Source of the DNA: a virus
IMG/VR virus record: IMGVR_UViG_3300006803_002763
Location: 1-40,382 of that record
Strand: one strand, 5' to 3'
DNA: 40,382 nt
A program made the translations under genes and the position numbers. Below are positions 13,651-37,143 of this stretch, piece by piece. Within the stretch, counting starts at the first letter, position 1, and each line of letters opens with the position of its first letter. The notes beneath the pieces are model-generated. The model had not been told where the DNA came from, did no database searches, and saw only the letters and a list, made by a program, of their open reading frames with translations.

Positions 13651-14073
13651 TCAGGCCAAGGGGCCGGTTGTGGTGTAATGCAAAACGACGGTGATCACCG
13701 CCGCCTTCAGCGCAGCCGCACCCTCGATGGGCAGATCGACCGAGACCGGGGCTTCGGGTTCAACCCAGTCGCAGAGGCCACCGAGGGTGCAGTCGGCTTC
13801 CAGTGCCGTTCCGATATCGGCGATCAGGGTGTCAAAGGTGCTGGCCCGGCCGGTTCCGGCTTGGATAACGACCTCCAGCTCGGCGCGGTGCTGGTAATGG
13901 TAGCGCAAGGGCGACAGCGTCACCTCCGGCTCGCCCGGCTGGCCGTCGCGCACGATGATAAGCCCCGCCGCTGGGATGCGCTCGGGCAGAACCTCGTCAC
14001 GCAGGGTAAGCGCGGCAAGCGGCTGCAGCCGCGCGTGCAGCGCGGCGAGGACGAGTTCGCGGGTGGTGGGCAT
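13651..14073 (-). CDS. Tail terminator-like / minor tail protein
   Basis: 140 residues, no strong family recognised. Composition and position between head-tail joining genes and the tail tube fit a lambda gpU/gpZ-type tail completion or terminator protein. These are about 130-140 residues with an alpha-beta fold starting in a helix (TTRELVLAALHARLQPL) and ending in beta strands (AAVITVVLHYTTTGPLA). Such proteins cap the tail tube and dock it to the head. It is the last gene before the plus-strand Abi_C insertion, and the minus-strand series resumes beyond that insertion at 15074. Function is inferred from size, order and predicted fold. Confidence 0.55.
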   Translation of the reverse strand: MPTTRELVLAALHARLQPLAALTLRDEVLPERIPAAGLIIVRDGQPGEPEVTLSPLRYHYQHRAELEVVIQAGTGRASTFDTLIADIGTALEADCTLGGLCDWVEPEAPVSVDLPIEGAAALKAAVITVVLHYTTTGPLA

Positions 14074-14218
14074 TTGGGGTCCCTAAGTTTGCGGCTTAAG
14101 TAAGGTTGGCCTAAAGCCCTGAGCGGACGGTCAAGCCAGATGCAACTGCCGCTGGCATAATCGCTCGTAGCTGGCAATACTGCGGTCCAAATGGCCAAGG
14201 CGAAAGGGCATTGAGGAG

Positions 14219-15022
14219 ATGCAGAGTTACGAAATGCTTATCACGCGGCTTGACCGCGCCGTGTTCGAAGAAGCGCTTAACATGCAGTCGGGCTACGTCC
14301 TGGATTTTTCAGATCGCACTTTTGGGGATTTCTTCTGCACTGAGGTCGGTGTCGATCCTGATGCCCCGCCCGGATCGTCGTTATTTTCAGCCTATGGCAC
14401 GTCGAAAGCCAAGCGCCTGCGGTCGTTTATAGCAAGCGCGCAACCTCACCTTGTCGCGCGTGCGCTGCGTGCGCTCTGGGAGTACCGGGAGAACAACATC
14501 CTGGGCAGCAGCGGACCGCGCGAGGATCGGTTGAAAGAAGTCTATTTCAAGATAGTTGGCAAGTTCGAAGGGGAAGAGCACGTAATTGATTCAACGGGAA
14601 TCGAAGCATTCGAGGCAGATGAAACCCTTCAAGAATTAGTCGCTGCGATCCGTAGGGATTTAGACGCTGGCCGTCCAAATTCTGGATTGGACCGACTGCA
14701 TACCTATTGCATGAAGCGCTTCGCTTCTTTGGTAGTCAAACACGGCGGGGAGCCCTGCGGCGAAAATGACGCGCTGCACGCCAGAGTGGGGAAATATGCC
14801 AAGGCGCTGAAAGCATCACGAAACCTCACGGAGATGTCGGACCGGATCATCAAGAGTTCCATTTCCACTTTCGAGTCGATGAACGACATTCGGAACAACA
14901 AGTCCTTTGCACACGACAAAGAAACCCTTGTCCCGATGGATGAAGCGAAGTTCATCTATGACAGCGTGACCGCCCTGCTACGTTTCATCAAAACGATGGA
15001 TGCTCAAAAATTTGAGGATTGA
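14219..15022 (+). CDS. Abortive infection protein with Abi_C domain
   Basis: 267 residues. The C-terminal 100 residues match the Abi_C (abortive infection C-terminus) domain: DRLHTYCMKRFASLV, MSDRIIKSSISTFESMNDIR, then RNNKSFAHD. The last motif is an R-x6-H pattern as in HEPN ribonucleases, so an RNase mechanism is plausible but unproven. The N-terminal 130 residues are an unassigned sensor-like region. It is the only plus-strand gene inside the late operon and has visibly lower GC than its neighbours, so it is a moron acquired separately and probably expressed from its own promoter in the lysogen. A GAGGAG sits immediately before ATG 14219; an alternative ATG lies at 14234. Confidence 0.8.
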   Translation: MQSYEMLITRLDRAVFEEALNMQSGYVLDFSDRTFGDFFCTEVGVDPDAPPGSSLFSAYGTSKAKRLRSFIASAQPHLVARALRALWEYRENNILGSSGPREDRLKEVYFKIVGKFEGEEHVIDSTGIEAFEADETLQELVAAIRRDLDAGRPNSGLDRLHTYCMKRFASLVVKHGGEPCGENDALHARVGKYAKALKASRNLTEMSDRIIKSSISTFESMNDIRNNKSFAHDKETLVPMDEAKFIYDSVTALLRFIKTMDAQKFED

Positions 15023-15073
15023 TGCAGATGGCACACGCGGGCTTGAGTGTCCGCTCCGTCCCCATGGCAGACA

Positions 15074-15706
15074 TCAGGCCAGCTTCCCGTCAATCCACCC
15101 CGCCACGATAAGCCCCGGCACGCCATCCACCGCGCGATCTGCATCGCGCGCCAGATTGAGCCGCTTGCGCAGCTTGACCTGAGGGACCAGCAGGAAGATC
15201 GGCACGGTTGCGACGCCGCGCCCGGTTTTCGACTTCGATGCCACCGCCCGGCCTTTCGAATTCAGCCGCCCCTCCGCAACCAAGAGGCTCGGTCCCGTGC
15301 GGCGATAGATGAACCGCAAGCGCAACCCGGTGCGGCGTTCCCATTCGCCCGGGGTGATGCGACCGCCCCTGGTGCTCTTGCCTGCCGCTGGCGTAGGGAT
15401 CGCCAGCCAGAACCCGTCCTTGGACCGGATCAGCGGGCCAGTGTCATGCGCGCCGATGATGACCGGGGCATTTGACCAGACCAGCGCCGCCGCGTTCAGA
15501 CTGTCGCCGGATTTCGGGAAGCTGGCGAGGCGGATGCTGTTGCCAAGCCGGGTGCCCAGCCCAGCGCCGGTGATCTGGCTGCGCCACGCGGATTTCAGGG
15601 AAGTGCCTGCCTCGCGCATTGCCGCGGAGACAGCTTTTTCACCGGCGGCAATCTCCGCCTGCATCAGGGCTACGATATCTGGGTTGAACTGGACCTTCAG
15701 CTTCAT
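15074..15706 (-). CDS. DUF6441-like head-tail completion protein
   Basis: 210 residues. The sequence starts MKLKVQFNPDIVALMQAEIA and carries SAWRSQITGAGLGTRLGNSI, typical of the DUF6441 family from alphaproteobacterial prophages. I take it to be a head-tail connector or tail-completion protein of the HK97 gp10 type. It is basic and lacks catalytic motifs. Its start overlaps the end of the next upstream gene (15703-16017) by four bases, so the two are coupled. The late operon is interrupted just downstream by the convergent Abi_C gene, leaving about 50 bases between the two stop codons. Confidence 0.65.
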   Translation of the reverse strand: MKLKVQFNPDIVALMQAEIAAGEKAVSAAMREAGTSLKSAWRSQITGAGLGTRLGNSIRLASFPKSGDSLNAAALVWSNAPVIIGAHDTGPLIRSKDGFWLAIPTPAAGKSTRGGRITPGEWERRTGLRLRFIYRRTGPSLLVAEGRLNSKGRAVASKSKTGRGVATVPIFLLVPQVKLRKRLNLARDADRAVDGVPGLIVAGWIDGKLA

Positions 15707-16017
15707 GCTGGCTGCAGGTCCAGTGACCAGACAAGCCGTTCACGGTCGCGCGTGGGCTCGCCCTGAATGGTGAAGCTGTTAGTAGCGATGACGATCAGAT
15801 CGCCCGCTCGCGGTTCAGGCAGGTCGGAGACGCGGACGTCTACCATAGTGGTGTCGCTGACAAATCGCCCAGCGCCAAACTCGGTGATGCGGTCCGGGGC
15901 GAGGCGGATGACGCGGATGAGGCGTTCCTCCGATGTGGTGGTAGAAATCCAGACAGCGGCCGCCGCCATGGATGGGTTGGCGAAGATCCGGTCCATGGCG
16001 GCGGCGAAGACGGTCAT
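15703..16017 (-). CDS. Head-tail joining protein (lambda FII-like)
   Basis: 104 residues, directly downstream of the major capsid gene. Size, order and beta-rich C-terminal half (DLIVIATNSFTIQGEPTRDRERLVWSLDLQPA in pattern) match lambda gpFII-type head-tail attachment proteins, which bind below the portal/gpW complex and accept the tail. The N-terminus (MTVFAAAMDRIFANPSMA) is a helix common in this group. It overlaps the DUF6441-like gene by ATGA. No catalytic residues are expected. The assignment rests mainly on gene order between E and the tail genes. Confidence 0.65.
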   Translation of the reverse strand: MTVFAAAMDRIFANPSMAAAAVWISTTTSEERLIRVIRLAPDRITEFGAGRFVSDTTMVDVRVSDLPEPRAGDLIVIATNSFTIQGEPTRDRERLVWSLDLQPA

Positions 16018-24794: not shown

Positions 24795-26054
24795 TTATGC
24801 CGAGAGTCTCTTTGCCTTCAGCTCGGCGAAGGTTTCACCAGTTTCCGTCAGCACCGCTTTGGCCCCGGTGAACTGCTGCCAGCGCTCAACGGCGACATCG
24901 ACATAGGCCGGGTTCAACTCGATCCCGAAGCAGACCCTCCCGGTGGTTTCTGCAGCGATCAGCGTGGTGCCCGATCCCATGAAGGGTTCGAACACAGCCT
25001 GGCCCGGGCTGGAGTTGTTCAGGATCGGTCGGCGCATGCATTCGACCGGCTTCTGGGTGCCGTGGACGGTCGCCGCGTCCTGATCCTTGCCGGAGATGAG
25101 CCAGAGGGTCGTCTGCTTGCGGTCCCCGGCCCAGTGGCCTTTGCCGGATTTCTTGACGGCATACCAGCAGGGTTCATGCTGCCAGTGGTAATCGCCCCGA
25201 CTGAGAACGAGGCGGTCCTTGGCCCAGATGATCTGCGACCGGACGGCAAAACCTGCCGCGACAAGGCTCTCGGCCACAGTGGAGGCGTGCAGCGCGCCGT
25301 GCCAGACATAGGCCACGTCTCCGGGGAACAGCGCCCACGCTTCGCGCCAGTCGGCACGGTCATCATTCAGCACTTTGCCGGTGCGCTTGGTCTTGGCCGC
25401 CCCCGCCTGGTTGCGCCAGGACGGGTCATATTGCACGCCGTAAGGCGGGTCGGTCACCATCAGCAGTGGCTTTACATCGCCGAGCAATCGCCCGACCACA
25501 TCGGCAGCAGTGCTGTCGCCGCAGATCAGCCGGTGTGACCCGAGCTGCCAGAGATCGCCTGGCACCGACACCGGCGTGACCGGCGGTTCGGGAATGTCAT
25601 CCTCGCCCTCGACGGCACCACCCTCGACCTGATCGGGATCGCGCAGCAGGGCATCCAGATCTTCGTCGGTAATCCCCAGCAGGGACAGGTCGAAATCCTC
25701 GGCCAACAGCCCCGCGATCTCGTCACGCAACATTGCCTCGTCCCATTCGCCAAGCTCGGTCAGTTTATTGTCGGCGATGCGGTAAGCCCGGCGTTCCGCC
25801 TCGTCGAGATGGCTGAGCCGGATCACCGGCACATCCTTCAGGCCCAGCATTGCCGCCGCCAGCACCCGGCCGTGCCCCGCAATCAGCTCTCCGTCGTCGG
25901 CCACCATGCAGGGCACGGTCCAGCCGAACTTGGCCATGCTGGCAGCGATCTTCGCCACCTGATCGGTGCCGTGGATCTTGGCATTACGGGCATAGGGCCG
26001 CAGCCGGTCGAGCGGCCAAGTCTCGATCTGGCTCGGCGCAAACACGAGGTCCAT
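24795..26054 (-). CDS. ParB-like nuclease/DNA methyltransferase fusion (N4/N6 adenine or cytosine)
   Basis: 419 residues. Residues 1-150 are a ParB/sulfiredoxin-fold domain (GELIAGHGRVLAAAMLGLKD; RRAYRIADNKLTELGEWD). Residues 165-400 are a beta-class amino-methyltransferase: catalytic TDPPYGVQYD (DPPY), then target region, then the SAM site FEPFMGSGTTLIAAETTGRV. This fusion is common in alphaproteobacterial phages and acts on adenine N6 or cytosine N4, probably to protect phage DNA or as an orphan methylase. No partner nuclease adjoins it. Its orientation opposes the neighbouring genes. A short plus-strand reading frame (24662-24871) overlaps its 3' end but looks non-coding. Confidence 0.88.
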   Translation of the reverse strand: MDLVFAPSQIETWPLDRLRPYARNAKIHGTDQVAKIAASMAKFGWTVPCMVADDGELIAGHGRVLAAAMLGLKDVPVIRLSHLDEAERRAYRIADNKLTELGEWDEAMLRDEIAGLLAEDFDLSLLGITDEDLDALLRDPDQVEGGAVEGEDDIPEPPVTPVSVPGDLWQLGSHRLICGDSTAADVVGRLLGDVKPLLMVTDPPYGVQYDPSWRNQAGAAKTKRTGKVLNDDRADWREAWALFPGDVAYVWHGALHASTVAESLVAAGFAVRSQIIWAKDRLVLSRGDYHWQHEPCWYAVKKSGKGHWAGDRKQTTLWLISGKDQDAATVHGTQKPVECMRRPILNNSSPGQAVFEPFMGSGTTLIAAETTGRVCFGIELNPAYVDVAVERWQQFTGAKAVLTETGETFAELKAKRLSA

Positions 26055-26148
26055 GGGGCAGCTCTCATTCGGGGCAGGCGGACATGCCGATGCGCGCGGG
26101 CAACATGGCCAGCGACAGGATCGGGGTCCGCGATGTGGGGGAAACGAA

Positions 26149-26178
26149 AGCGCCCGAGAGGGCTATCCTCCGGGCGCT
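26149..26178. repeat. Stem-loop inverted repeat (possible terminator, minus direction)
   Basis: AGCGCCCG, a bulged A, GAGG, loop GCTAT, CCTC and CGGGCGCT form a 12-bp stem with one bulge. Read on the minus strand it is followed by TTTCGTTT, weakly terminator-like. It lies upstream of the methylase start (26054), where it could block read-through into that gene or attenuate it. Confidence 0.5.
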
Positions 26179-26262
26179 ATTCTTCGATGATTAATAGGTA
26201 GGTCAAGGGGGGCAGCGTTGTCAAATGAAAAATATACGTGGATTCAAAGGCTTCTCGGCAGG

Positions 26263-26422
26263 TGGCTTCCGCTGGCTGGCTTCCGGCGTGGTGGCTTCCG
26301 CAAACTGGATTCCTTGGATTCCGCAAAAGAATCCAGCAAGCCAAGATCGAGATTCCGCAAGCCTTTGATAATGAGTCGCTTTTCCCAAAATTATTCGGCA
26401 GGTGGATTCCGGGTGGCTTCCC
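26263..26422 (+). repeat. Cluster of TGGMTTCCG repeats
   Basis: Eight near-identical copies of TGG(C/A)TTCCG lie within 160 bases, starting at 26263, 26277, 26292, 26306, 26315, 26348, 26403 and 26414 (three are imperfect). An inverted copy (GAATCCAGCAAGCC) lies near 26329. No gene is convincingly encoded here. The array could bind a regulator or replication protein, or be a tandem-repeat relic. It occupies the boundary between the phage methylase gene and the defence operon. Confidence 0.55.
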
Positions 26423-26863
26423 CGGTGAAAGTGCCTGTCGCTAGCGAAATGCTGCGCTGCGCCCCCCCGCATACATTCGGGGCCGGGGAGGAACCATGCC
26501 AAGGGGGCGCTTGTTGCCTAGGGCGCGCATCAGAGTCTCGTACTGTCCGCTGCTAACCACATGTGCAGGCGCGGTGCAAAGACCTGTAACACCGATCAGC
26601 CGTTGAGCTGAAGACAAGCCTATCGCTGTGGCCGACGTCTAACCACAGGGATTGCGTTAGCGTTACCAGCGTGAAAATTCTTACATGCCACTTTTCACCT
26701 CTCAACCACTTATGCACAGAAAACAGTTCATTTACGTTCATGGCGCGAAGTTTTGAGCCTGGACATTTCCGACCAGAGCGCACAACATCCACCCTTAGTG
26801 TCATGGGCAGCTGTGACCACAAGAATATGGGTTTTGCGCACTTGCGCTGAAGGAGCGATACCA
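26423..26863 (+). promoter_or_regulatory. Leader region of the defence operon, no gene seen
   Basis: 440 bases without a supported gene, more AT-rich than the phage core from about 26570. The operon promoter must lie here. AATATG near 26824 is a possible -10, but I see no convincing -35. A CCTGG site near 26758 could matter if the Dcm-like enzyme regulates its own gene, as EcoRII-type methyltransferases can. Confidence 0.35.
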
Positions 26864-27937
26864 ATGACTGCCAGCGGCCCCGCTTTCCGTTTTATCGACC
26901 TTTTCGCCGGTATTGGCGGGTTGAGGATCGGGTTCGAACGCTCCGGTGGGCAATGTGTGTTCACGAGTGAGTGGAACAAGTTTTCGCAGGAAACGTATCG
27001 CGCAAATTTCGAGGACGACCATCCAATCAATGGCGACATCACCGCGATCGATGAGGCCGATATTCCTGCGCATGACGTCTTGCTTGCGGGGTTCCCCTGT
27101 CAGCCTTTCTCCATCGCAGGAGTCAGCAAGAAGAACTCTCTTGGACGGGCGCATGGTTTCGCGGATGAAACGCAGGGCACACTGTTTTTCGATGTTGTCA
27201 GGATCCTGCGCTACCATCGTCCGAAGGCATTTCTGCTAGAGAATGTCAAAAATCTGCTGTCCCATGACAAAGGAAATACGTTCAGGGTGATCCTCCATGC
27301 CCTTGATGAGCTAGGCTATGAGGTCGATCACAAGGTCATCGACGCGCGAAGCTGGGTTCCACAGCATCGCGAGCGGATTTTCATCACCGGCTTCCGTCGG
27401 GACGCTCCCACGCGGTTTTCACTGGATGACGTTGTCGTACCGCCCGGACCGAACCCTCGTCTGTCCAGTGTCCTTCACCCCGGAGATGGGACGGAGATTG
27501 CCGAGGATCCGTATACGTGTGGGCCGTTGGCGGCTGTGGCCCCTAAATACACGCTCACACCGAACCTGTGGAAGTATCTCCAAGCGTATGCGGCAAAGCA
27601 TAAAGCTGCTGGCAATGGTTTCGGGTTCGGACTCTGCGGTCCGGATAGCGTTGCCAGGACTTTGAGTGCGCGCTACTACAAGGATGGCAGTGAGATCCTG
27701 ATCGCGCAGGGCGACGGCATTCCACGGCGTCTAACGCCAAGGGAATGTGCAAGGCTGATGGGGTTTGACCAGCCAGGCTCCAATCGTCCTTGGAAGATTA
27801 ACGTTTCAGATACTCAGGCGTATCGGCAATTTGGAAATGCAGTTGCAGCACCTGTCGCGATCGCAATTGCCGAGGCCATGGCCCCGTGGATCATCAACAC
27901 GGTCGCCCTTCGGTCGAGGAGAAGCATCATTGCCTGA
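26864..27937 (+). CDS. Dcm-like DNA (cytosine-5)-methyltransferase
   Basis: 357 residues from ATG 26864, with AAGGAG eight bases upstream; the open frame extends 5' without a ribosome site. All C5-methyltransferase motifs are present: [10 protein letters not shown] (I), [11 protein letters not shown] with catalytic Cys79 (IV), LLENVKNL (VI), QHRERIF (VIII) and YRQFGNAV (X). The similarity to E. coli Dcm is strong and continuous ([53 protein letters not shown]), including the region that normally determines specificity. The expected product is 5-methylcytosine at CCWGG, an inference from similarity. It is the first gene of a six-gene overlapping operon, and its stop overlaps the Vsr start. Confidence 0.9.
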
Positions 27938-28409
27938 AAAGACGCCGATGACGCGGTCCGAAATGATGTCGCGGATCGGAACCAAGAATACCGAACCAGA
28001 ACTGAAGATCAGGCGTGGCCTTCATAGGCGTGGATTTCGCTACCGTCTCCACCGTAACGATCTGCCGGGGAAACCTGACATTGTACTTCCGCGGCACAAT
28101 GTGGTGATCTTGGTCCATGGATGCTTCTGGCACGGGCACCAAGGGTGTCGGTACTTCAGGGTTCCCCGGTCGAACCCCGAATTCTGGGAGACCAAGATTC
28201 AGAAGAACCGGGACCGGGACGCAAGACAGGTTGACCAGCTTGCTGACCAAGGTTGGCGGGTCTCGGTGATCTGGGAGTGTGCTACCCGAAACTATCCGAC
28301 CGAAGAACTGGCCGATAAAATCGCAGGATGGATATCCGGCAACGAAAAAAGAGATGAGATCGCCGAACATACTGGCGCATCCACAGAAATGGAACCGGAG
28401 ACCACATGA
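27930..28409 (+). CDS. vsr: Very short patch repair endonuclease (Vsr)
   Basis: 159 residues from TTG 27930, preceded by GAGGAG at eight bases; the next in-frame ATG (27948) has only a weak site. Vsr nicks 5' of the T in T:G mismatches formed when 5-methylcytosine deaminates in the methylase target. Key features are intact: [20 protein letters not shown], the catalytic Asp in PGKPDIVL, zinc/catalytic [11 protein letters not shown] and WECATR, and [13 protein letters not shown]. The pairing with a Dcm-like gene parallels E. coli dcm-vsr. It overlaps the methylase end by eight bases and the ATPase start by ATGA. The C-terminal 20 residues are an acidic extension. Confidence 0.92.
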
Positions 28410-30037
28410 GCGACCTTATCAACGAACCAGATGCCTCCCGTCTCATTTTCGGGCTGCGCGATACCGGCTACAACGTAAAGACCGCAGCGGCCGATATCGT
28501 GGACAACTCGATTGCGGCGAGGGCTAGCCATGTAAACATCCTCATTGTTCTTCATGAAACCGGACGCAAGGTTGTCTATTTCGGCGACGATGGCGAAGGC
28601 ATGGATGCGGCCGGAGTGCACACGGCGATGCGCTATGGAGCTCCAGTTCGAGAGAATCCAGAGAGTCTTGGCAAATTCGGCCTCGGCCTGAAAACCGCCT
28701 CAAGCTCCGTCTGCAAAAAATTCTCACTCGTGTCCCGGAAGGCGCCGGATCAGCCTTTGGCAAAATTGTCTTGGGATCTCGAACATGTGGAACGTGTCAA
28801 GAAATGGGAGATGCTCAGCGAACCCGTCTCGACCGATGAGGAAGAGATGTTCGAGGAACTATGTGGCGAAACGGGGACGCTTGTTGTCTGGGAAAACTGC
28901 GATCGGATTCTTTCCAAGGATTTTGAGCCTGGAAGCACTAAGGAACAGGCCGCCATCAAACGTCTCGCAGATACCCTTGGCCGACATCTTTCTCTGATCT
29001 TCCATCGGTTCACCGACAAGAACGATGCTCGAGAGCGGAACGTGGAGATTATGGTGAACGACAGTCCAGTCGTCCCTTGGAATCCGTTCTATCCAAAACG
29101 CTCCGATCAGGTCCTGCCCGAGAAAAAGCAGAAGCTCGTCATCGAGATGCCTGACGGGAGTGAGGAAACGGCGTCCATCCGTGCTTGGATCCTCCCACAT
29201 CGTCGGGACATGTCCAAGGACGAGGAACGTGAATTCGCGAGGATTTCCAACCGCGCACAGGGCTTCTATGTTTATCGCGAGGGTCGCTTGATACAGGACG
29301 GCGGCTGGATGGACGTCTTTGGAACACCCGAACCGCACACATCACTGCTGAGGATCGAGTTTGATTTCGGTCATGACTTGGACGATGCGTTCAGGGTGGA
29401 CGTGAAGAAATCTCGCATACTTTTCCATCCCGATCTTGAAGATGGGCTGAAGGCCCTGCTGCAGCCGATCTACCGCGAGGCCGGGAACAGATATCGCCGC
29501 ACCAACCGTTCAGCTACCGCCGGAACCAATACGGTTGACCACAGCAGTTCGAACAAGAATATCGCATCGACTCCAAATGCCGCGACCGCGACCGTTAACT
29601 CTGCAGATGCTACGGACCAGACGGCAGAGGTGACCAATAACCTCGGCGCTAAGATCCGCATCAAGGCGCCTGTTCAGTCGAACGTAGAGGCCGGACATGT
29701 CCACGTTGAAGCAGTGGAAACCATTCACAATGGTGACCTCTGGCAACCGGCGTTCCGAAGTGCGACGGAAGACGGTTTCGTTCCGTCCGTCCTCCTCAAC
29801 AAGCATCATGATTTCTACCAGAAAATCTACCAGCGCGCCGCTGGCAACGGGTTTGCGGTCGAAGGGATGGACCTGCTCCTCTGGGCATTCGCAGTCGCCG
29901 AACAGAACAACACCAACGCAGAACTCGAGCCGATCTTCGAGGACATCCGCTCCGAGATTTCAGGAAATCTCCGAAAGCTTCTTCGGAACCTTCCTGATCC
30001 GGAACCGGAAGAGCTGTCTGAGGATGACGACCAGTAA
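28406..30037 (+). CDS. MORC-like GHKL ATPase
   Basis: 543 residues. The N-terminal 130 residues form a Bergerat-fold ATPase of the HATPase_c_3/MORC-MutL type: N box AAADIVDNS (Asp30, Asn34), G1 DDGEGMD (61-67), G2 GKFGLGLKTAS (89-99). A transducer-like S5 domain follows to about residue 365. A Ser/Thr/Asn-rich linker (about 365-415) leads to a C-terminal helical domain (about 430-530) of unknown fold with an acidic tail. MORC ATPases clamp and compact DNA on ATP-driven dimerisation. Prokaryotic MORC/paraMORC genes occur in R-M neighbourhoods with helicases and nucleases, matching this context. It overlaps Vsr (ATGA) and the HNH gene (one base). Confidence 0.88.
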   Translation: MSDLINEPDASRLIFGLRDTGYNVKTAAADIVDNSIAARASHVNILIVLHETGRKVVYFGDDGEGMDAAGVHTAMRYGAPVRENPESLGKFGLGLKTASSSVCKKFSLVSRKAPDQPLAKLSWDLEHVERVKKWEMLSEPVSTDEEEMFEELCGETGTLVVWENCDRILSKDFEPGSTKEQAAIKRLADTLGRHLSLIFHRFTDKNDARERNVEIMVNDSPVVPWNPFYPKRSDQVLPEKKQKLVIEMPDGSEETASIRAWILPHRRDMSKDEEREFARISNRAQGFYVYREGRLIQDGGWMDVFGTPEPHTSLLRIEFDFGHDLDDAFRVDVKKSRILFHPDLEDGLKALLQPIYREAGNRYRRTNRSATAGTNTVDHSSSNKNIASTPNAATATVNSADATDQTAEVTNNLGAKIRIKAPVQSNVEAGHVHVEAVETIHNGDLWQPAFRSATEDGFVPSVLLNKHHDFYQKIYQRAAGNGFAVEGMDLLLWAFAVAEQNNTNAELEPIFEDIRSEISGNLRKLLRNLPDPEPEELSEDDDQ

Positions 30038-30861
30038 TGATCGCGGCAAAGAGACAGCTCATTGCAAATGCACTGCTCACAGGCACTGGTGCCGAGATCG
30101 CATTGGCAGTCGATACGGACGGTCTCCGCTCCGGCATGCGGCTGTGGTTTGCCGACTTGGATGAACGCCACGGGCCCGTGGCCGAGCTCAAACCCCATGG
30201 GCTGAAGTCGCATCGCGTGCGGCTGACGTTCGGAAACTTTTCGGGCGCCGTGATCCGCCAGATTGCACAGGCACCCGTCGAGGATCAGCAACTGGCAAGA
30301 GCGCTGGTATCGTCGATTGGCCCGGAGCATGAGGTGTCGATCCATGGGCAGGACTTGGCGGACTGGACTGTCGCCAGTGGGAGCTTTCAACTTCAGGCAG
30401 TCGTAAGGCATGTCGAGGGTCCAGATACGGACGAAGCCATTCGGCGCACATGTCAGGAGGTCATCGTTCCGGTCATGGCGGCGATGGCCGAATTGATTGG
30501 ATACGACATACTTGAGACCGAAACAGCCGAAGCTATGCCCGCCTACGAAGGCGCGGTGCATCCTGCCAACGTGGCACGCCGGGAACGAAATCCGCGAAAC
30601 CGGCTGCTTTGTATCCGGTTACATGGCGACAAATGCGCTGTTTGCGGCATCGATCCTCGCCAAGTTTACGGTGCTGGGATCGGGATAGTGGAAGTGCATC
30701 ATCTTGAACCCCTCGCCAATCTTGCGGAACCGCGCCCATATGATCCGGCGTGTGATCTGATCCCGCTATGCCCGAACTGTCATCGGGCAGTTCACACCAG
30801 ACGTCCGATTCCCCTGGATATTTCCGAACTCCGTCGGTGCATGGAGGACGCAGGTGCCTGA
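30037..30861 (+). CDS. HNH endonuclease with N-terminal accessory domain
   Basis: 274 residues. The C-terminal 90 residues are a zinc-stabilised HNH nuclease: CAVCG (Cys200, Cys203), EVHHLEPL (His221-His222), LCPNCHRAVH (Cys245, Asn247, Cys248, His249, His253). The N-terminal 170 residues are an unassigned alpha/beta region with RSGMRLWFADLDERHGPVAE, not recognisable as a known recognition domain. The active site is complete, so this is the best candidate for the cleaving subunit of the system. It is coupled to the ATPase (TAATG) upstream and to the helicase (eight-base overlap) downstream. Confidence 0.87.
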   Translation: MIAAKRQLIANALLTGTGAEIALAVDTDGLRSGMRLWFADLDERHGPVAELKPHGLKSHRVRLTFGNFSGAVIRQIAQAPVEDQQLARALVSSIGPEHEVSIHGQDLADWTVASGSFQLQAVVRHVEGPDTDEAIRRTCQEVIVPVMAAMAELIGYDILETETAEAMPAYEGAVHPANVARRERNPRNRLLCIRLHGDKCAVCGIDPRQVYGAGIGIVEVHHLEPLANLAEPRPYDPACDLIPLCPNCHRAVHTRRPIPLDISELRRCMEDAGA

Positions 30862-32665
30862 TTTCGCCGCCATGCCAATTACATTTGAAGGAGTGCGCGA
30901 ACGGGTACCCGCCGGTCACACCTTGTCCGAACGGTTGCTGGAACCTTTAATTCTGCTGGATCGGAATGGTGACCGGCTCTCGGCCAGCCTTGGCGGTATG
31001 AGGATGATCCGCGGACAGAAAAATGAACTCAGGGCTCCGACCGACGATCACGCATGGGTTGTCGACGGCACCGTTTTGCGGCCGCTTCCAAAAGATGCAC
31101 CGAAGCTCTTCCGGATTATGCTGGGGGATGTGGACCCGAAAGATCTTCCTTTCAGCGTGGCGATCAGGCTGCTGCGAACGGTCGATGAGCGGATGTCCAC
31201 GGCTGCTTCCACAAGTGTCCTGATTGCAGGACGGGATGCTGCAGACCAGGAGACCAACCCGGTTGCCCCGAGCGGTCTCCGGGCCGACCTATTTCCCTAC
31301 CAAGCCCGCGGCGTCCAGTGGATGTGGGACACTGTCGGAAGGACCGGGGGGGTCATTCTGGCGGACGAGATGGGATTGGGAAAAACGATCCAGATCATAG
31401 CGCTGCTCCTCATGGACATGCCTGACCAATCAAGCCCTGCGCTCATAGTCTGTCCAACAAGTCTGATCGCCAACTGGGTCCGGGAGATTGAACGATTTGG
31501 CCCCAGTCTCGAAACGAACGTGCATCGCGGAAGTCATCGAACGGGCGTCTCCAGTGGCCTCCAAAGGTCGCGGGTCGTGATCACTACCTATGACACGATG
31601 GTAAACGATATCTCCATCTTCTCCGGCCTGGAATGGTCGTGGGTAATCTGCGACGAGGCTCAGGCTATCAAGAACCCTTCCTCCAACCGCCGTCAGGCCA
31701 TCGTCACCATCCCTCGAAAGCGCTCCATTCCCATGACGGGAACTCCCGTAGAGAATACCCTGCTTGATCTGTGGTCGCTTACCGACTTTGCGATACCGGG
31801 GCTTCTCGGCACCCAGAGCGAGTTCGAGGCTGAGTTCCCGGACAGTGTCGAAGCGGGTCAGAGGCTCGGTGGCCTGACCGACCCAATCATATTGAAACGG
31901 CGTGTTGCCGATGTCGCTTCAGATCTGCCAGAACGGATTGACATCGACATACCGCTTGAGCTCGATGATCGTCTCATCGATCATTATCGTGAAGTTCGGG
32001 ATACAACACTCGCTAAATATCCTGTTGCCGGGGCACTTGTCGCGACGCTTCAGCTTCAACTCCTTTGCGCACATCCATGGCTACGGCAAAACTCCGACGC
32101 TGAAGAAGAAGCCGACATCATCCCCGCGTCCAGCATGCCGCTCGTTACGCCAAAAATGGAACGCATTGCGGCACTGCTCCGCGAGGCTTTTGCGAATGGC
32201 CGAAAGGTCATCGTGTTCGCGTTGTTCAACCGTATTGGAGACCTTCTGAAGGAGGTCTGTGCCGACATGCCCGGTGTCCACTGGGGAGCCATTAACGGGT
32301 CGACGCCTCAAGAGGACCGGCAGCCAATCGTTGACATATTTTCCGAAAATGTTGGGGCCGCATGTCTCGTCCTCAATCCAAAGGCAGCCGGTGCCGGTCT
32401 CAATATCACGGCCGCCACTGTTGTGATCCATTTCACACCGGTCTGGAACCCAGCTGTCGAGGCACAGGCGAGCGCCCGTGCCCACCGCCGCGGGCAAACG
32501 CAACCGGTCACCGTATATCGCCTGTTTTACAAAGATACTGTGGAGGAAATTATGATCGAACGATCTGCGTGGAAGAGTGATCTTGCAAATGAGACGGTTC
32601 CTGTGTCCACACGCGATGCGGACGACTTGAAGCGGGCGCTGTCCATCCTTCCGGTGAAAACATGA
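30854..32665 (+). CDS. SWI2/SNF2-family DEAD-box helicase/translocase
   Basis: 603 residues from GTG 30854 (GGAGG six bases upstream). The first 140 residues are a specific N-terminal region. The SNF2 core follows: LFPYQARGVQWMW (Q-like motif), LADEMGLGKTIQ (motif I, Lys177), ICDEAQAIKN (motif II), MTGTPVENTLLDLWSL (motif III), NPKAAGAGLNITAA (motif V) and ARAHRRGQTQPVTVYRL (motif VI). All catalytic residues are present. SNF2 proteins translocate on double-stranded DNA; in R-M and DISARM-like systems they supply the motor for target scanning or degradation. It is the motor of this operon and overlaps the EcoRII-N gene by ATGA. Confidence 0.92.
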   Translation: MPDFAAMPITFEGVRERVPAGHTLSERLLEPLILLDRNGDRLSASLGGMRMIRGQKNELRAPTDDHAWVVDGTVLRPLPKDAPKLFRIMLGDVDPKDLPFSVAIRLLRTVDERMSTAASTSVLIAGRDAADQETNPVAPSGLRADLFPYQARGVQWMWDTVGRTGGVILADEMGLGKTIQIIALLLMDMPDQSSPALIVCPTSLIANWVREIERFGPSLETNVHRGSHRTGVSSGLQRSRVVITTYDTMVNDISIFSGLEWSWVICDEAQAIKNPSSNRRQAIVTIPRKRSIPMTGTPVENTLLDLWSLTDFAIPGLLGTQSEFEAEFPDSVEAGQRLGGLTDPIILKRRVADVASDLPERIDIDIPLELDDRLIDHYREVRDTTLAKYPVAGALVATLQLQLLCAHPWLRQNSDAEEEADIIPASSMPLVTPKMERIAALLREAFANGRKVIVFALFNRIGDLLKEVCADMPGVHWGAINGSTPQEDRQPIVDIFSENVGAACLVLNPKAAGAGLNITAATVVIHFTPVWNPAVEAQASARAHRRGQTQPVTVYRLFYKDTVEEIMIERSAWKSDLANETVPVSTRDADDLKRALSILPVKT

Positions 32666-33093
32666 CCGGTGATGTGTTCAGCAAAGTACTGAGCGCCAAT
32701 GATGTAGGAACGACCGGTGGACATCAGGGCGGCATCTTGATTCCCAAGGGTGAAACGCAGCTACTTGCAATCCTGCCCGTACTTGATCCAGAAATCAAAA
32801 ACCCGGATGCGTGGCTGGATTGTGTGGATGATGCCGGTCAGGCTCTCCGTTTCAGGTTTGTCTATTACAACAACAAGTTACACGACGAAAATGGGACACG
32901 AAACGAATTCCGGGTGACGCATATGACCAAATGGTTCCGTGACACCGGCGCTCGTGAGGGCGATGAGTTCAGGATTTCCCTGATGTCTGACAAGATGCGC
33001 TATTCAATCGGAATAATTCGTCCCGATCCTGAGGACCAGAACGAAGAAGATGGCGTTCGGATCCGCCTGTCCGGATGGCGGCGAGTCCATTGA
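32662..33093 (+). CDS. Stand-alone EcoRII-N (effector DNA-binding) domain protein
   Basis: 143 residues covering only the N-terminal effector-binding domain of restriction enzyme EcoRII, a B3-like pseudobarrel that reads CCWGG. Matching blocks are LSANDVGTTGGHQGG (EcoRII has LSANDTGATGGHQ), IP at 27-28, FVYYNNKL (68-72 region; EcoRII IYYNSR) and TRNEFRVTHMTKW (79-91; EcoRII TRNEKRITRW). The PD-(D/E)XK catalytic half of EcoRII is absent and the protein ends soon after the domain. It therefore probably provides sequence recognition to the other subunits, in partnership with a Dcm-like methylase of the same expected target. It is the last gene of the operon and ends ten bases from the convergent AIPR gene. 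Confidence 0.85.
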   Translation: MTGDVFSKVLSANDVGTTGGHQGGILIPKGETQLLAILPVLDPEIKNPDAWLDCVDDAGQALRFRFVYYNNKLHDENGTRNEFRVTHMTKWFRDTGAREGDEFRISLMSDKMRYSIGIIRPDPEDQNEEDGVRIRLSGWRRVH

Positions 33094-33102
33094 CCAGATG
33101 GA

Positions 33103-35217
33103 TCAATGGGGCCGTGAGATCGCCGATATCTTGATCCGGGGCGAATCTGCCTCGTCAACATAACCTTCCTCACGCGCGCGCAACATGATCTGTTCAGCAA
33201 TCACTGACTGCCGCCCCGACGGAATGCGGCCAGGCAACAGGCTGCAGGTCCTGAGGATGCCGTCCTCTGTCGGGCTGAATTTCCGGTTCGCCCGACCCCA
33301 ATCCCTGAGCCTAGACCAAAATGGTGCCCCGATTGCAATCACGTTTTGCTGGGCTGCTATTTCTGCGTCCATCGACGTATTCCGCCGGTCATCGCGCTGC
33401 GTGGTTCGTGCTTCTTCGGGGGCTACAACACAATCCTTGAAATCATCTCCATACTCGACGACTGCGCGCTCAATTGCAGCCCAACAGGCTTGCTTCTTCC
33501 CCCATTCCGTAATGTTGTTTACACCCGCCTCTGGGGCGGTAATGACCGTCGTGGCCACTTCGGCGGCCATAAGAAGAGTGTCATTCAGAGCCCTCGGAAC
33601 GGATTGTGTCCGCCAGACAGAATCCAAATCCAGCAACTTTTCGGCTTCATGGGTGTCTGATACAACCTTGGCGATCGTATAAGTGATGATGTTGGCCCGG
33701 TAACCGCCAGGATACCACGGTTGTTTCGGCACGACTTTTTCCAGATGGCGAAAGACGATCAGTTTGGCCACAAGTCGCTTGAACCACGTCTCATCAAATT
33801 TACTATCGCTGCGTGACCATTCACTTCCGATTGTCTGTGCGAACGTCCCGAAGTTCTTCTGGGCACCCTTGCTCACGGTATCAGGCTGCATCCGGAAGCT
33901 CATCTCGACTTTGGCTAGATCGGTCTTGACGAAATATTGGGACTTCGGGTTCTCGATATCGAACCGCCGACGCTCTGCAGGCGATTTTTTGGCCCGCTCC
34001 ACCAGATACTGCCCTCTTGCCCGCTCGTAGAACCACTTCGTTTCCTTGTTCGTGCCCTCCGCGGCGGGTGCCAAGACGCGGCGTGAAAACTCTTCCATCC
34101 GCATGTGAAAGGGGTGGTTCGAAAAGAAATCGGCAGCACTGACCTTGTTCTGGCTGTTGGCGTATTTTGAAATGAACGGCACAATCTCTTCGGAGACCTC
34201 GTCAGGCACGACTGTAAGCTTCAACTGGACATGGACATTATCGAGCGTTTCCGGCGATGCGGACAGGGCTGCATGCAGTGACGCCGTTGTCTGTCCCCCG
34301 TTCACGATCTGCAGATTGGTGGCCCTGACGATCTGCATTCCGTTCTCGGACCTCACCACCTCGACCTCGTCTGCTGTGGCGGACAATCCGTTGTTGTAGC
34401 TGAAGAACATCTCCGGTTCATCCTTGATGGTGTCCCGAATGCCCCTGTTGACTGCACCGCGGGCCTGCAAAAAGCTCCGCACATTCGACTCGAGAAGCCG
34501 CGCGCCCCATTTGTCATAGATCTTTGCTAGCTGAGTCCCACCCATTACGATCAGGTAGCTGTCGAGCCTGTCACCACTCCTAGACGCGGCCAGTGCAGGA
34601 AGGGCCTCGCCAAAGTCATCCCGGAAATTGACGATGATCTTCTCTCGGGCATGACCCGAGGTCTCGAAGCGGTGAAATCTTGAAAGATCCCAGACGTTAT
34701 AGGTGACAGGTACATCGGCTATCTTTCCAGCAAGGACGGCGTCCGTCCGGGCACTATAGATGGCGTTGGTAATCAGGATGAGTTTCACCTTGGTGACGGA
34801 TGACCAAGCGGATGTGATCAAGGATGCTGCACCTGCTTCTGATGATCCCTCCATCAGATCGGAACGGAAAGCAGCGCGGCGTGATGCTGCGACAAAGTTG
34901 ATCAGGCTGCCAAAGGACTTTTTCGCGTCGGCAGCATTGATTTTCACCGGAGTGGCATCGGGATGAAAGTCGCTGACGATCACGCTCAGAACGCCTTCGG
35001 ATTCCCGCGGGTCGCCGCCAATTGCGTCGATCCGGACCGGCTTTCCAGAATTCCTGTCCGAGAAGTCGACCCAGTCGGAGGTAACGATCTCGCCCTCCAT
35101 TTCTAGGCGGTTGGCCATTCGCTCAAAAAAGGCCTCCTTGACGTCTAGAGAGCTTTCTTCGGCGACTGCATCAAGTTCAGCCATGAGACCAGCGTGGTAT
35201 TCAGTTATTTCTTCCAC
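33103..35217 (-). CDS. AIPR-family abortive infection phage resistance protein
   Basis: 704 residues from GTG 35217 (AGGGA eight bases upstream). The AIPR domain is centred on residues 250-400: MFFSYNNGLSATADEVEV, NLQIVNGGQTTASLHAALS, SKYANSQNKVSAADFFSNHP. Many AIPR proteins are found beside R-M genes, and some resemble nucleases or Argonaute-associated partners; the mechanism is not established. The gene faces the defence operon, with the two stops ten bases apart. It has lower GC than the phage core and belongs to the same island. Whether it is part of the system or a separate module is unknown. Confidence 0.88.
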   Translation of the reverse strand: MEEITEYHAGLMAELDAVAEESSLDVKEAFFERMANRLEMEGEIVTSDWVDFSDRNSGKPVRIDAIGGDPRESEGVLSVIVSDFHPDATPVKINAADAKKSFGSLINFVAASRRAAFRSDLMEGSSEAGAASLITSAWSSVTKVKLILITNAIYSARTDAVLAGKIADVPVTYNVWDLSRFHRFETSGHAREKIIVNFRDDFGEALPALAASRSGDRLDSYLIVMGGTQLAKIYDKWGARLLESNVRSFLQARGAVNRGIRDTIKDEPEMFFSYNNGLSATADEVEVVRSENGMQIVRATNLQIVNGGQTTASLHAALSASPETLDNVHVQLKLTVVPDEVSEEIVPFISKYANSQNKVSAADFFSNHPFHMRMEEFSRRVLAPAAEGTNKETKWFYERARGQYLVERAKKSPAERRRFDIENPKSQYFVKTDLAKVEMSFRMQPDTVSKGAQKNFGTFAQTIGSEWSRSDSKFDETWFKRLVAKLIVFRHLEKVVPKQPWYPGGYRANIITYTIAKVVSDTHEAEKLLDLDSVWRTQSVPRALNDTLLMAAEVATTVITAPEAGVNNITEWGKKQACWAAIERAVVEYGDDFKDCVVAPEEARTTQRDDRRNTSMDAEIAAQQNVIAIGAPFWSRLRDWGRANRKFSPTEDGILRTCSLLPGRIPSGRQSVIAEQIMLRAREEGYVDEADSPRIKISAISRPH

Positions 35218-35479
35218 CGCATTATTCCCTGACTTGAATTCAAAAGCTCATTTACTCGGGAGGGCCCACTTGACCGACTGATTTTCTATATAATTGAAAT
35301 CTGTAGCCCATCGGGTGTTGCCATTGCAAATGCTCGTTGGTCGCAATCCTATGCCACGGGCCCGGGACGGGTTTCATTGCCAGTAGAGTCCTTCAACCTT
35401 GGACCGGCAGTCGAAATGTCCGGCGGGCCTCGGTTCAATCTGCAGCAAAAGTTTAGTACTCGCAATCTTAACCAACCTA
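35218..35479. other. AT-rich intergenic gap at right edge of the defence cargo
   Basis: 262 bases without a supported gene. The part near 35281-35300 is AT-rich (TTTTCTATATAATTGAAATC) and is a plausible promoter area for the AIPR gene. It also marks the return from lower-GC cargo to GC-rich phage genes, so a recombination junction may lie here. Confidence 0.35.
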
Positions 35480-36130
35480 TCACTGCCAAGGCCGCACTCT
35501 AGGCATCGCCCCCATCACCTCGATATCCCGAAGCATGCGGCCCACCGCCAATCCATCGCGAATCCAGTCCAGCGCCTGCCACCAGTCATCATAGCCGCGA
35601 CGAGCGGACACAATCTGCTCCGGGTGCGGCCGCCAGGTGACCGGACAGGCCAAAACCTCGACCGTTCGCCATTTGCCGCGGGTCAGCACGCGTTCAGTGC
35701 CGACGACTATGGTGGTCGCCCGCTCGCCATGCTGATTGCGCTTGGTATCGACCGGCACGCAGCGCGGCACCACGCCGGGCATCCAGTCGGGCGTTAGCCC
35801 AGCGCGCGCCAGTTCGGCCACGCGGATCGCCATGCGGATGCCGCCGAGGCTAGCCGGCATTCCGGCAACGGTGGCGGCGATCACCTCGGCATCTGGGTGG
35901 GTGTAACTGCCCATCTTGTGCTGGCCGCCGTCAACCTTACAGCCCAGTGCTGCGCGTTGCAGCAGGACATATTCGAGGCCAAAGCCGAAGCCTTCTTCCG
36001 ATACGTTCTTCGGAAGCGGCAGCTCCAGTTGAGCCTTCTCGATCCGAAACGCCCATTCAAGTGCCGCCTGCACGCCCAGAGCACGTTTTGTGCGTCCGCC
36101 GCGATTGATAATCGATCTCTGCAAGGTCAT
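35480..36130 (-). CDS. Conserved-looking prophage protein, unknown function (last gene of the early operon)
   Basis: 216 residues from ATG 36130, which overlaps the stop of the replication gene by ATGA; the longer frame has no ribosome site. I recognise no domain. Features are a basic start (MTLQRSIINRGGRTKRALGVQ), helical ALEWAFRIEKAQLEL, GFGFGLEYVLLQRAALGCKVD, and a C-terminal WRPHPEQIVSARRGYDDWW region. The last part resembles small phage regulators that recur at the end of early operons in rhodobacterial prophages, so an antiterminator-like or late-activator role is possible but speculative. Confidence 0.55.
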   Translation of the reverse strand: MTLQRSIINRGGRTKRALGVQAALEWAFRIEKAQLELPLPKNVSEEGFGFGLEYVLLQRAALGCKVDGGQHKMGSYTHPDAEVIAATVAGMPASLGGIRMAIRVAELARAGLTPDWMPGVVPRCVPVDTKRNQHGERATTIVVGTERVLTRGKWRTVEVLACPVTWRPHPEQIVSARRGYDDWWQALDWIRDGLAVGRMLRDIEVMGAMPRVRPWQ

Positions 36131-37143
36131 AGCACACCCCGCATCCGGAGGCGTTCCGTGGTGACGAGCCCGCGTTCCAGCATCAATCCGCACATAGCGG
36201 CGCTGATCATGTTCGGGGGCAGGTATTCGTCTGAGTTCACCTTGGCCGCATAGAATGCCGCCGTTTCATCGGGGCTGGGCCGTGGCTTGCTTTGGGCCTT
36301 GCGGCTGCGCTTGGCTTTCCCAGCACTGGCCGCCGCCTGCGCATCGCGCTGTGCAGCGCGTTCCATGAACCGGTCGAGGGCTTTGGGCCCATCGGGCGGA
36401 TTGGGATGATCGCACCGGGTCTCGGTGGCGGTCTCGATGATCCGACCCTCGGACAGCCCGAGGTCATCGATCCATTGACGCACATGGGTTCTAGCTGGCG
36501 CGCCCTGCCACCAGGCGGGCAGGCTGGCATTTGCGGCGAAGCCCAGCGCATTCAGAAGTTTTGCAAAGAACCGATCAAAATCGGCCTCGCGCGCAGCCGC
36601 GTCCTCCTCCTCCTTTACTGATTTACTTAGTGGTTCTCTTACAAGGTTAGTGTCCGGATTTCGGACACGGCTTTGGCCCTTTTCCGGACACGGGTCGGGG
36701 CAAAATCCGGACACGGCTTCGGGGTGGCTCCCGTGTCCGAAATCCGGACACGGATCAGTCGCGTCAGGCTCATCGAGACCGCACGTGCCCGCGTCATCAG
36801 TGGTTTCCAGATCGTCTGCGTACCCGTGTCCGATTTCCGGACCCGGCCCCACATCAGCCGGTGTGAAGCCGCGCTCGAACCCCAGGATGTAGCGGGTCGG
36901 CTGCTGTCGCTTGGTCACTGGATCAATCCGTGGCACACGGCGCAACAGCCCCCCGGCCTCCAACTGGCGCAGGTGGTCATTCAGCGTCGAGCGGCTGATT
37001 TCGCAATCGTGGGCCAGCCGAACCTGCGAGGGAAAGCAACCGTAATCCGGGTTGAACCGGTCGCAGAGATGCCAGAGCACGATCTTGGTTGTGGGCTTCA
37101 ACCCGCGCTGCTTGATGGCCCAGTTGGTGGCGTCATGGCTCAT
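36127..37143 (-). CDS. Helix-turn-helix replication initiator-like protein (O-like)
   Basis: 338 residues from ATG 37143 (ATGA overlap with the VRR-NUC gene); about 66 extra residues in the open frame upstream are not used. Residues 1-80 are a winged helix of the RepA/O type (MSHDATNWAIKQRGLKPTTK; DYGCFPSQVRLAHDCEISRS; LNDHLRQLEAGGLLRRVPR). A Gly/Asp/Pro-rich linker (about 95-165) is encoded by the iteron cluster. The C-terminal 150 residues form a helical domain typical of such proteins. It resembles lambda O in organisation: an N-terminal origin-binding domain with the origin in its own gene. A C-terminal helicase-recruiting role is inferred. Confidence 0.7.
   Translation of the reverse strand: MSHDATNWAIKQRGLKPTTKIVLWHLCDRFNPDYGCFPSQVRLAHDCEISRSTLNDHLRQLEAGGLLRRVPRIDPVTKRQQPTRYILGFERGFTPADVGPGPEIGHGYADDLETTDDAGTCGLDEPDATDPCPDFGHGSHPEAVSGFCPDPCPEKGQSRVRNPDTNLVREPLSKSVKEEEDAAAREADFDRFFAKLLNALGFAANASLPAWWQGAPARTHVRQWIDDLGLSEGRIIETATETRCDHPNPPDGPKALDRFMERAAQRDAQAAASAGKAKRSRKAQSKPRPSPDETAAFYAAKVNSDEYLPPNMISAAMCGLMLERGLVTTERLRMRGVL
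36650..36846 (-). repeat. Iteron cluster, probable phage replication origin
   Basis: Eight copies of a TCCGGACACGG-type sequence or its complement lie within 200 bases inside the replication gene. Direct copies lie at 36661-36670 (shorter), 36683-36693, 36706-36716, 36743-36753 and 36836-36846 (one mismatch). Inverted copies lie at 36650-36658, 36731-36740 and 36824-36833. Three inverted pairs are separated by only 2-4 bases, giving palindromes such as GTGTCCGAAATCCGGACAC. Iterons inside an O-like gene are the lambda ori plan. Confidence 0.7.

Follow-up and report, generated by a model that had tools for sequence, protein, structure and literature searches.

A phage-borne MORC cassette with a predicted CCWGG reader matched to its Dcm-type methylase

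Described MORC systems and the gene content of the cassette

Operons containing MORC-family ATPases were predicted as a class from gene neighbourhoods by Iyer, Abhiman and Aravind (2008, Biol Direct 3:8, PMC2292703), and that paper describes a second group of MORC operons with a SWI2/SNF2 helicase, an HNH or EcoRII-like nuclease, Dcm and Vsr. It also mentions a VP1/RAV DNA-binding protein in some MORC operons, proposes DNA looping, names AIPR in the legend of Figure 2, and treats eukaryotic MORC proteins as probable descendants of bacterial ones. A related class combines Z1, PD-(D/E)XK and C5-methylase genes, in some systems with AIPR and MORC, and the mzaABCDE (MZA) system of this class is called validated in PMC9523054. 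Here we describe a six-gene cassette at positions 26864-33093 of the IMG/VR virus record IMGVR_UViG_3300006803_002763 (positions 1-40,382, the whole stretch analysed, hereafter the window), which is a good candidate for a new, phage-carried member of the predicted MORC operon class and for a defence system.

The six genes are open and lie in one direction, and Pfam names in each of them the domain that an earlier note, made from the DNA sequence, had assigned to it. That note had mentioned neither the virus setting nor the convergent AIPR gene, which begins 10 bases beyond the EcoRII-N gene. A contig (L012) of a metagenome-assembled genome (MAG) of Yoonia matches the cassette region at 100%, and Yoonia is placed in the Paracoccaceae, Rhodobacterales (NCBI taxonomy), below called the host family. 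The genes are as follows (lengths in amino acids, aa):

26864..27937, + strand: Dcm-type C5-cytosine methyltransferase, predicted CCWGG specificity (357 aa; Pfam DNA_methylase 6.8e-82)
27948..28409, + strand: Vsr T:G mismatch endonuclease (153 aa from the ATG; Pfam 7.1e-27)
28406..30037, + strand: MORC-family GHKL ATPase, MzaB relative (543 aa; Pfam HATPase_c_3 4e-24)
30037..30861, + strand: HNH nuclease with an N-terminal alpha/beta domain (274 aa; Pfam HNH 1.6e-4, at 22.2 bits barely above the 21.4-bit cut-off)
30854..32665, + strand: SNF2-family ATPase/translocase (603 aa, GTG start; Pfam SNF2-rel_dom 1.5e-54, and Helicase_C)
32662..33093, + strand: stand-alone EcoRII-N (B3) DNA-binding protein, predicted CCWGG reader (143 aa; Pfam 4.1e-16)
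33103..35217, - strand: AIPR-family protein, MzaE relative, convergent accessory gene (704 aa; Pfam AIPR 8.7e-102, AIPR_N 3.6e-31)

All neighbours had been thought to overlap by 1-8 bases, which is correct for four junctions (Vsr/MORC 4 bases, MORC/HNH 1, HNH/SNF2 8 and SNF2/EcoRII-N 4). An 8-base overlap of Dcm and Vsr would require Vsr to begin at TTG 27930, a codon preceded by a GAGGAGAAG-like ribosome site; a start at ATG 27948 gives a 10-base gap, as annotated in a homologue on a Fuscovulum plasmid.

The catalytic motifs of the cassette proteins are retained in their homologues with small changes. The methylase has the PCQ and ENV motifs (PCQ in 44/44 aligned sequences), and Vsr matches PDB 1cw0 (E-value 1e-31) and, above its cut-off, the TIGR00632 model, and keeps the PD and HGCFWH motifs, with the CFWH stretch altered in two of the 40 aligned sequences. 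Motifs I, II, III and VI are present in the SNF2 protein, with I, III and VI recognisable in all 44 aligned sequences, and its best solved chain is 1z63 (3.3e-68). The HNH protein has its zinc and histidine residues, with C200, C203, H221, H222, C245, C248, H249 and H253 invariant in 25 aligned sequences; a search with this protein against PDB structures gave no confident match, and for the N-terminal fold of its AlphaFold model (predicted local distance difference test, pLDDT, 80.9) none of the 50 Foldseek matches listed was significant (best E-value 8.2e-3, template modelling score 0.24). Comparison of the AIPR protein with PDB sequences returned nothing useful.

The MORC protein has the nucleotide-binding boxes and matches human MORC2 (5.3e-7) and two MzaB models (3.1e-41 and 4.8e-53, the latter below the curated cut-off). 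Its S5 motif, GFYVYREGRLI (residues 286-296), fits the MORC motif GhXhhpXXRhl given in PMC2292703, and is identical in 28 of 46 aligned sequences, the remaining 18 differing from it by one to three residues. The N-box (residues 29-38 of gene 28406-30037) has Asp, in ADxxDNS, where human MORC2 has Glu, and a pattern scan of 25 further loci, which allowed any residue, found Asp in 19/19 loci with a pattern match. The Asp N-box is common to prokaryotic MORC proteins of SNF2 and Z1 operons alike.

With the SWI2/SNF2 group of Iyer et al. the cassette shares the MORC S5 motif, SNF2, HNH, the B3 fold and the Dcm and Vsr neighbours; it differs from that group in being phage-borne and in having a reader that is predicted to be a stand-alone B3 protein matched to the Dcm-type methylase. 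The earlier note had regarded the architecture as unnamed, a view that finds no support: this second group and the related, reportedly validated MZA system are found in PMC2292703 and PMC9523054, respectively, and an identical operon may already be drawn in the figures of the former. The gene list is already known, and new are the reader/methylase pairing, the reader-HNH fusions described below and the phage setting. The open-licence literature yielded no test of the predicted gene set (one published elsewhere is possible), no paper joining MORC, SNF2, AIPR and defence, and, from 2018 on, none joining EcoRII, MORC, helicase and phage.

As to MZA, the MORC protein is MzaB-like and the AIPR protein MzaE-like, and a C5-methylase and Vsr often lie beside both classes, whereas the cassette has SNF2, HNH and B3 proteins instead of the Z1 and PD-(D/E)XK proteins, is without a sigma-factor gene (mzaA), and has AIPR as an optional and mostly convergent gene. 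Membership of MZA was rejected: neither Z1 nor PD-(D/E)XK was present among the Pfam, PADLOC and NCBIfam matches of the scanned window genes, and the MzaB (180 of 850 bits) and MzaE (1e-99, 335 of 1050 bits) scores indicate homology but remain under the NCBIfam cut-offs. A MORC match is present in 54 plasmid records, and the 16 loci examined among them comprised 6 of SNF2 type (5 with EcoRII-N), 9 of Z1 type and 1 with neither annotated; the Z1-type loci hold Z1 and PD-(D/E)XK genes, 8 of them with AIPR and one (L053) broken up. Class-wide MORC samples obtained with two queries (9/385 and 9/369 genomes) gave 4 SNF2-type and 12 Z1-type loci with G963 unclassified, in a count that omits G854. 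In the plasmid and class-wide samples, the cassette and MZA thus appear as sister classes, of which the cassette is the less common.

The type IIE enzyme EcoRII has the EcoRII-N recognition domain and a Dcm-type methylase in common with the cassette, in which, by contrast, the EcoRII-N protein is without EcoRII-C and is accompanied by ATPases and an HNH protein. Membership was rejected, as the 143-aa protein contains only EcoRII-N and no EcoRII-C catalytic domain. Full EcoRII-like enzymes with Dcm and Vsr do occur in the host family, and EcoRII-C enzymes adjoin the cassette core in three loci (L008, L010 and L023). CglI and NgoAVII, according to PMC4267653, resemble the predicted system in a C5-methylase, a B3 reader, a separate superfamily 2 (SF2) ATPase and cleavage that needs nucleotide hydrolysis, and differ in that B3 is fused to a phospholipase D (PLD) nuclease, the helicase carries Z1, and no MORC is among the three genes; this assignment was rejected because the Pfam scan showed neither PLD nor Z1. 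DISARM, Zorya and Dpd were rejected on a PADLOC scan of nine proteins between 24795 and 36193, which among the matches listed gave only SNF2 (ZorD, DpdE and DrmD) and methylase (DrmMII) models. The comparison with DISARM and other catalogued systems suggested in the earlier note thus matched the motor or the methylase only, with no such system named among the PADLOC and NCBIfam matches.

Recurrence of the cassette and match of reader to methylase

A MORC-seeded scan of genome contigs yielded 39 loci, the window's own host contig L012 included, and in 35 of these the MORC-HNH-SNF2-EcoRII-N core is collinear on one strand, which argues that the cassette is not a chance assembly. The four other loci are a MORC gene alone (L040), a locus at the end of its contig (L048) and two archaeal loci with weak matches (L049 and L050). 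According to the record titles, the core loci come from alpha-, beta- and gammaproteobacteria and one Verrucomicrobiaceae MAG. A Dcm match (>45% identity) was present in 34 of the 35 core loci, the contig of the remaining one (L024) starting 267 bases before MORC, and a Vsr match in 31. Dcm, Vsr and MORC follow in this order on one strand in 24/35 core loci, the others having a divergent or downstream Dcm, no Vsr match, or a cut contig.

The reverse search, for EcoRII-N (PF09217), covered 394 genomes of the host family and 14 control genomes, and found the domain in 17 and none of these, respectively. The 17 genomes comprised 7 with a stand-alone protein (148-166 aa open frame), 5 with a full-length EcoRII-like enzyme, 1 with a partial protein and an EcoRII-C piece nearby, and 4 with proteins of 316-331 aa. 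All seven stand-alone genes, one of them that of the own host, sit in the cassette with Dcm and Vsr, three of them with AIPR; two (G010 and G109) are probably loci L015 and L007 of the MORC-seeded set. The co-occurrence of EcoRII-N-only proteins with MORC, SNF2 and HNH, for which the earlier note had proposed to search, was thus found from both directions.

Dcm and EcoRII recognise CCWGG, and Ecl18kI recognises CCNGG. The target-recognition domain of the window methylase (53 residues) is 72% identical to that of E. coli Dcm and 57% to that of the pKPN2 methylase, which has R.Ecl18kI as its partner enzyme (3.6e-203). In five EcoRII-N-bearing loci (L006, L007, L008, L010 and L117), identity was 64-70% with Dcm and 45-57% with the pKPN2 methylase. 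Two SNF2-MORC operons without an EcoRII-N match are, conversely, closer to the pKPN2 methylase (69% in L011, 76% in L109) than to Dcm (43% and 50%, respectively). The domains and the Dcm-like target domain support the restriction-like unit with a Dcm-type methylase that the earlier note had predicted. A restriction-enzyme fragment in L011 gave nothing useful against PDB. After HNH in L109, the other operon with an Ecl18kI-type methylase, lies a gene (10625-11569) for a 314-aa protein without a Pfam match, a candidate alternative reader.

The EcoRII-N protein itself matches EcoRII (3hqf, 9.8e-8), and its AlphaFold model (pLDDT 84.2) predicts a complete B3 domain, for which Foldseek returned plant B3 domains, EcoRII-N (1.2e-5), the UbaLAI B3 domain (7.7e-5) and the RAV1 B3 domain (1wid, 7.4e-4). 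The two EcoRII arms, LxANDxGxTxxHQxG and TRNExRxT, are invariant or nearly so in 14 aligned sequences including EcoRII, and are looser at two positions in 24 aligned sequences. EcoRII-N is also found followed by an HNH_2 domain in a single protein of 313-318 aa beside Dcm, in four loci from genomes of the host family and in one of Pseudomonas (L023), with EcoRII-N scoring slightly below the Pfam cut-off in L023 and L088:

L085:4974-5915, EcoRII-N/HNH_2 fusion
L086:3094-4038, EcoRII-N/HNH_2 fusion
L087:2426-3370, EcoRII-N/HNH_2 fusion
L088:3295-4236, EcoRII-N/HNH_2 fusion
L023:5696-6652, EcoRII-N/HNH_2 fusion (Pseudomonas)

A Vsr match is near the fusion in three of the four host-family loci. 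The fusions are candidate single-chain CCWGG restriction enzymes, and suggest that a reader and an HNH nuclease can act as one enzyme on a Dcm site, with the proviso that the HNH families differ. The B3 fold, the EcoRII arms and these fusions beside Dcm favour, by homology, the earlier proposal that the EcoRII-N protein is a CCWGG reader.

Proposed mode of action and alternative explanations

We propose, with a probability of roughly 0.6, that the six genes encode a restriction-modification system for CCWGG that is carried by a phage, has several subunits and depends on ATP. From what is observed, namely the genes and domains present, the retention of catalytic motifs, the recurrence of the set and the agreement in type between reader and methylase, we infer CCWGG binding, assembly of the proteins, ATP use, cleavage and defence against other phages. 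The Dcm-type enzyme would mark resident DNA, and Vsr would repair the T:G mismatches that arise from deamination of the methyl mark. The small B3 protein would read unmarked CCWGG on incoming DNA, from which site two ATPases, SNF2 as motor and MORC as clamp, would move along or loop the DNA, to be cut by the HNH protein. The optional AIPR protein may act as a second-line effector or in an accessory role, like its counterpart in MZA systems. Restriction at CCWGG is favoured by the collinear core, the presence of Dcm in 34/35 core loci, the confinement of stand-alone EcoRII-N to the cassette in the host family, the Ecl18kI-type methylases of the B3-less operons L011 and L109, and the relation of MORC and AIPR to MzaB and MzaE of the MZA system, called validated in PMC9523054. 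Specificity for CCWGG is further suggested by the B3 fold with its conserved arms, the Dcm-like target domain and the EcoRII-N/HNH_2 fusions beside Dcm.

Several observations weigh against this proposal. The switch of methylase type with loss of the reader is based on two B3-less operons, and one of these (L011) appears more divergent overall, since an HNH match is missing there too. Residues K92, K97 and Y41 of EcoRII, which we take to be DNA contacts, are not kept in the window EcoRII-N protein, the nucleases of the fusions (HNH_2) and of the cassette (HNH) belong to different Pfam families, and three core loci (L037, L041 and L042) have no Vsr match though their contigs are not cut there. 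Depletion of CCWGG was rejected as evidence for the cassette, because host-family pieces without the cassette show it too: the observed/expected ratio was 0.39 in the window (59 observed, 152 expected), 0.28 in the Yoonia contigs and 0.54 in 8 chromosome pieces of other carriers in the host family, and, without the cassette, 0.59 in 79 phage loci and 0.41 pooled in 7 non-carrier pieces (0.10-1.11), with 0.88 in 5 pieces from the wider class (sample L205-L211, L212-L219 and L220-L229; the 4 shortest of 16, L223, L224, L227 and L230, were dropped). Of 32 like five-base words, CCWGG ranks with those most strongly avoided by the host family and by its phages, and Dcm-type methylases were found in only 20/198 host-family genomes.

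Dcm and Vsr could instead constitute an independent phage shield against host CCWGG enzymes, next by chance to a separate superinfection exclusion system of MORC, HNH, SNF2 and B3. The varying position and orientation of Dcm and Vsr (with the Dcm-Vsr-MORC order in only 24/35 loci) and the EcoRII-type systems of the host family fit such a shield, which we nevertheless regard as unlikely, as a Dcm-type methylase accompanies the core in all loci but L024, with its early contig start, and the reader consists of a domain with which a CCWGG enzyme recognises its site. It is quite unlikely that the complex silences or condenses CCWGG DNA in the manner of MORC/SNF2 remodellers, with AIPR or HNH causing abortive infection once it is set off: the invariant HNH active-site residues argue for cutting, and no AIPR was found next to the core in 22/35 loci, even though it adjoins the core in 13, the solved MORC and SNF2 relatives include human MORC2 and chromatin remodellers, and the N-box Asp in place of the Glu of human MORC2 is compatible with slow hydrolysis.

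The HNH domain has McrA-type proteins as its only relevant PDB matches (2.4e-3 and 0.019) and mREase_IV as its only PADLOC match (3.3e-4), in each case for the HNH part alone, as might be expected of a type IV-like, modification-dependent system that attacks foreign DNA with other cytosine modifications and uses B3 only to dock on resident CCWGG. This is very unlikely, however, given that a Dcm-type methylase adjoins the core in 34/35 loci, that EcoRII-N has been solved in complex with cognate DNA (title of 3hqf), and that the N-terminal domain of the HNH protein has no modified-base reader among its 50 listed, non-significant Foldseek matches.

If the CCWGG restriction-modification proposal holds, the compact cassette, with its predicted target and separate reader, offers an entry to how a methylation mark aims MORC at DNA, and, if the reader is exchangeable together with the methylase, a restriction machine could be retargeted by swapping one small protein. 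More tentatively, and with a good deal of doubt, prokaryotic MORC machines might be general ATP-dependent cutters in which a small, detachable B3 reader, taken from the recognition domain of a restriction enzyme and swapped with the methylase, retargets the MORC/motor/nuclease core. In Neorhizobium, an MZA locus (L060) that has genes for a Dcm-type methylase and an EcoRII-like enzyme also encodes a 240-aa orphan protein (15087-15809), which shares 40% of 144 residues with the N-terminal domain of the adjacent EcoRII-like enzyme, as if the same borrowing of a reader were used in the Z1 class.

Phage setting and the AIPR gene

The window encodes a large terminase, portal, protease, major capsid, tape measure and tail proteins and a tyrosine integrase, and the cassette is cargo of a temperate siphophage. 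A near-identity search of a phage collection gave no match; three faecal phage records have a MORC match at 31-33%, and all or part of the cassette is present on four phage contigs (L002-L005). We surveyed the stretch before the ParB-N6/N4 methylase gene in the best 80 of at least 598 phage loci that share this gene, many of which are on contigs that end too close to it for judging the slot. One locus (L125, the same contig as L005) has a window-type cassette there, another (L193) relatives of MORC, AIPR and Vsr, and a third (L128) an AIPR relative. In 17 loci where a homologue of gene 35480-36193 was found upstream (flank ≤10 kb), its distance to the ParB-N6/N4 methylase gene was 428-9891 bases. 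Within this phage family, the corresponding part of the window, 24795-35480, has the look of a slot for cargo. In the phage relatives L193, L128 and L149, the ParB-N6/N4 methylase gene is preceded by MORC/AIPR or other SNF2-like genes.

A convergent AIPR gene lies ≤139 bp downstream of EcoRII-N in 12/35 core loci, including the own host contig; in L018 it is directly upstream and co-directional, and L020 has a weaker copy 3.7 kb away. AIPR was not found in 21/35 core loci, three of which (L022, L030 and L041) have <1.5 kb downstream. In the related phage L003, the cassette including AIPR is inverted relative to the backbone of the window phage, as is that of L005 judged by the methylase gene, and the joint inversion in L003 indicates that AIPR travels with the cassette. 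In L007, the position after EcoRII-N where other loci have AIPR is taken by a gene (13733-15898) for a 721-aa protein with no Pfam match above cut-off.

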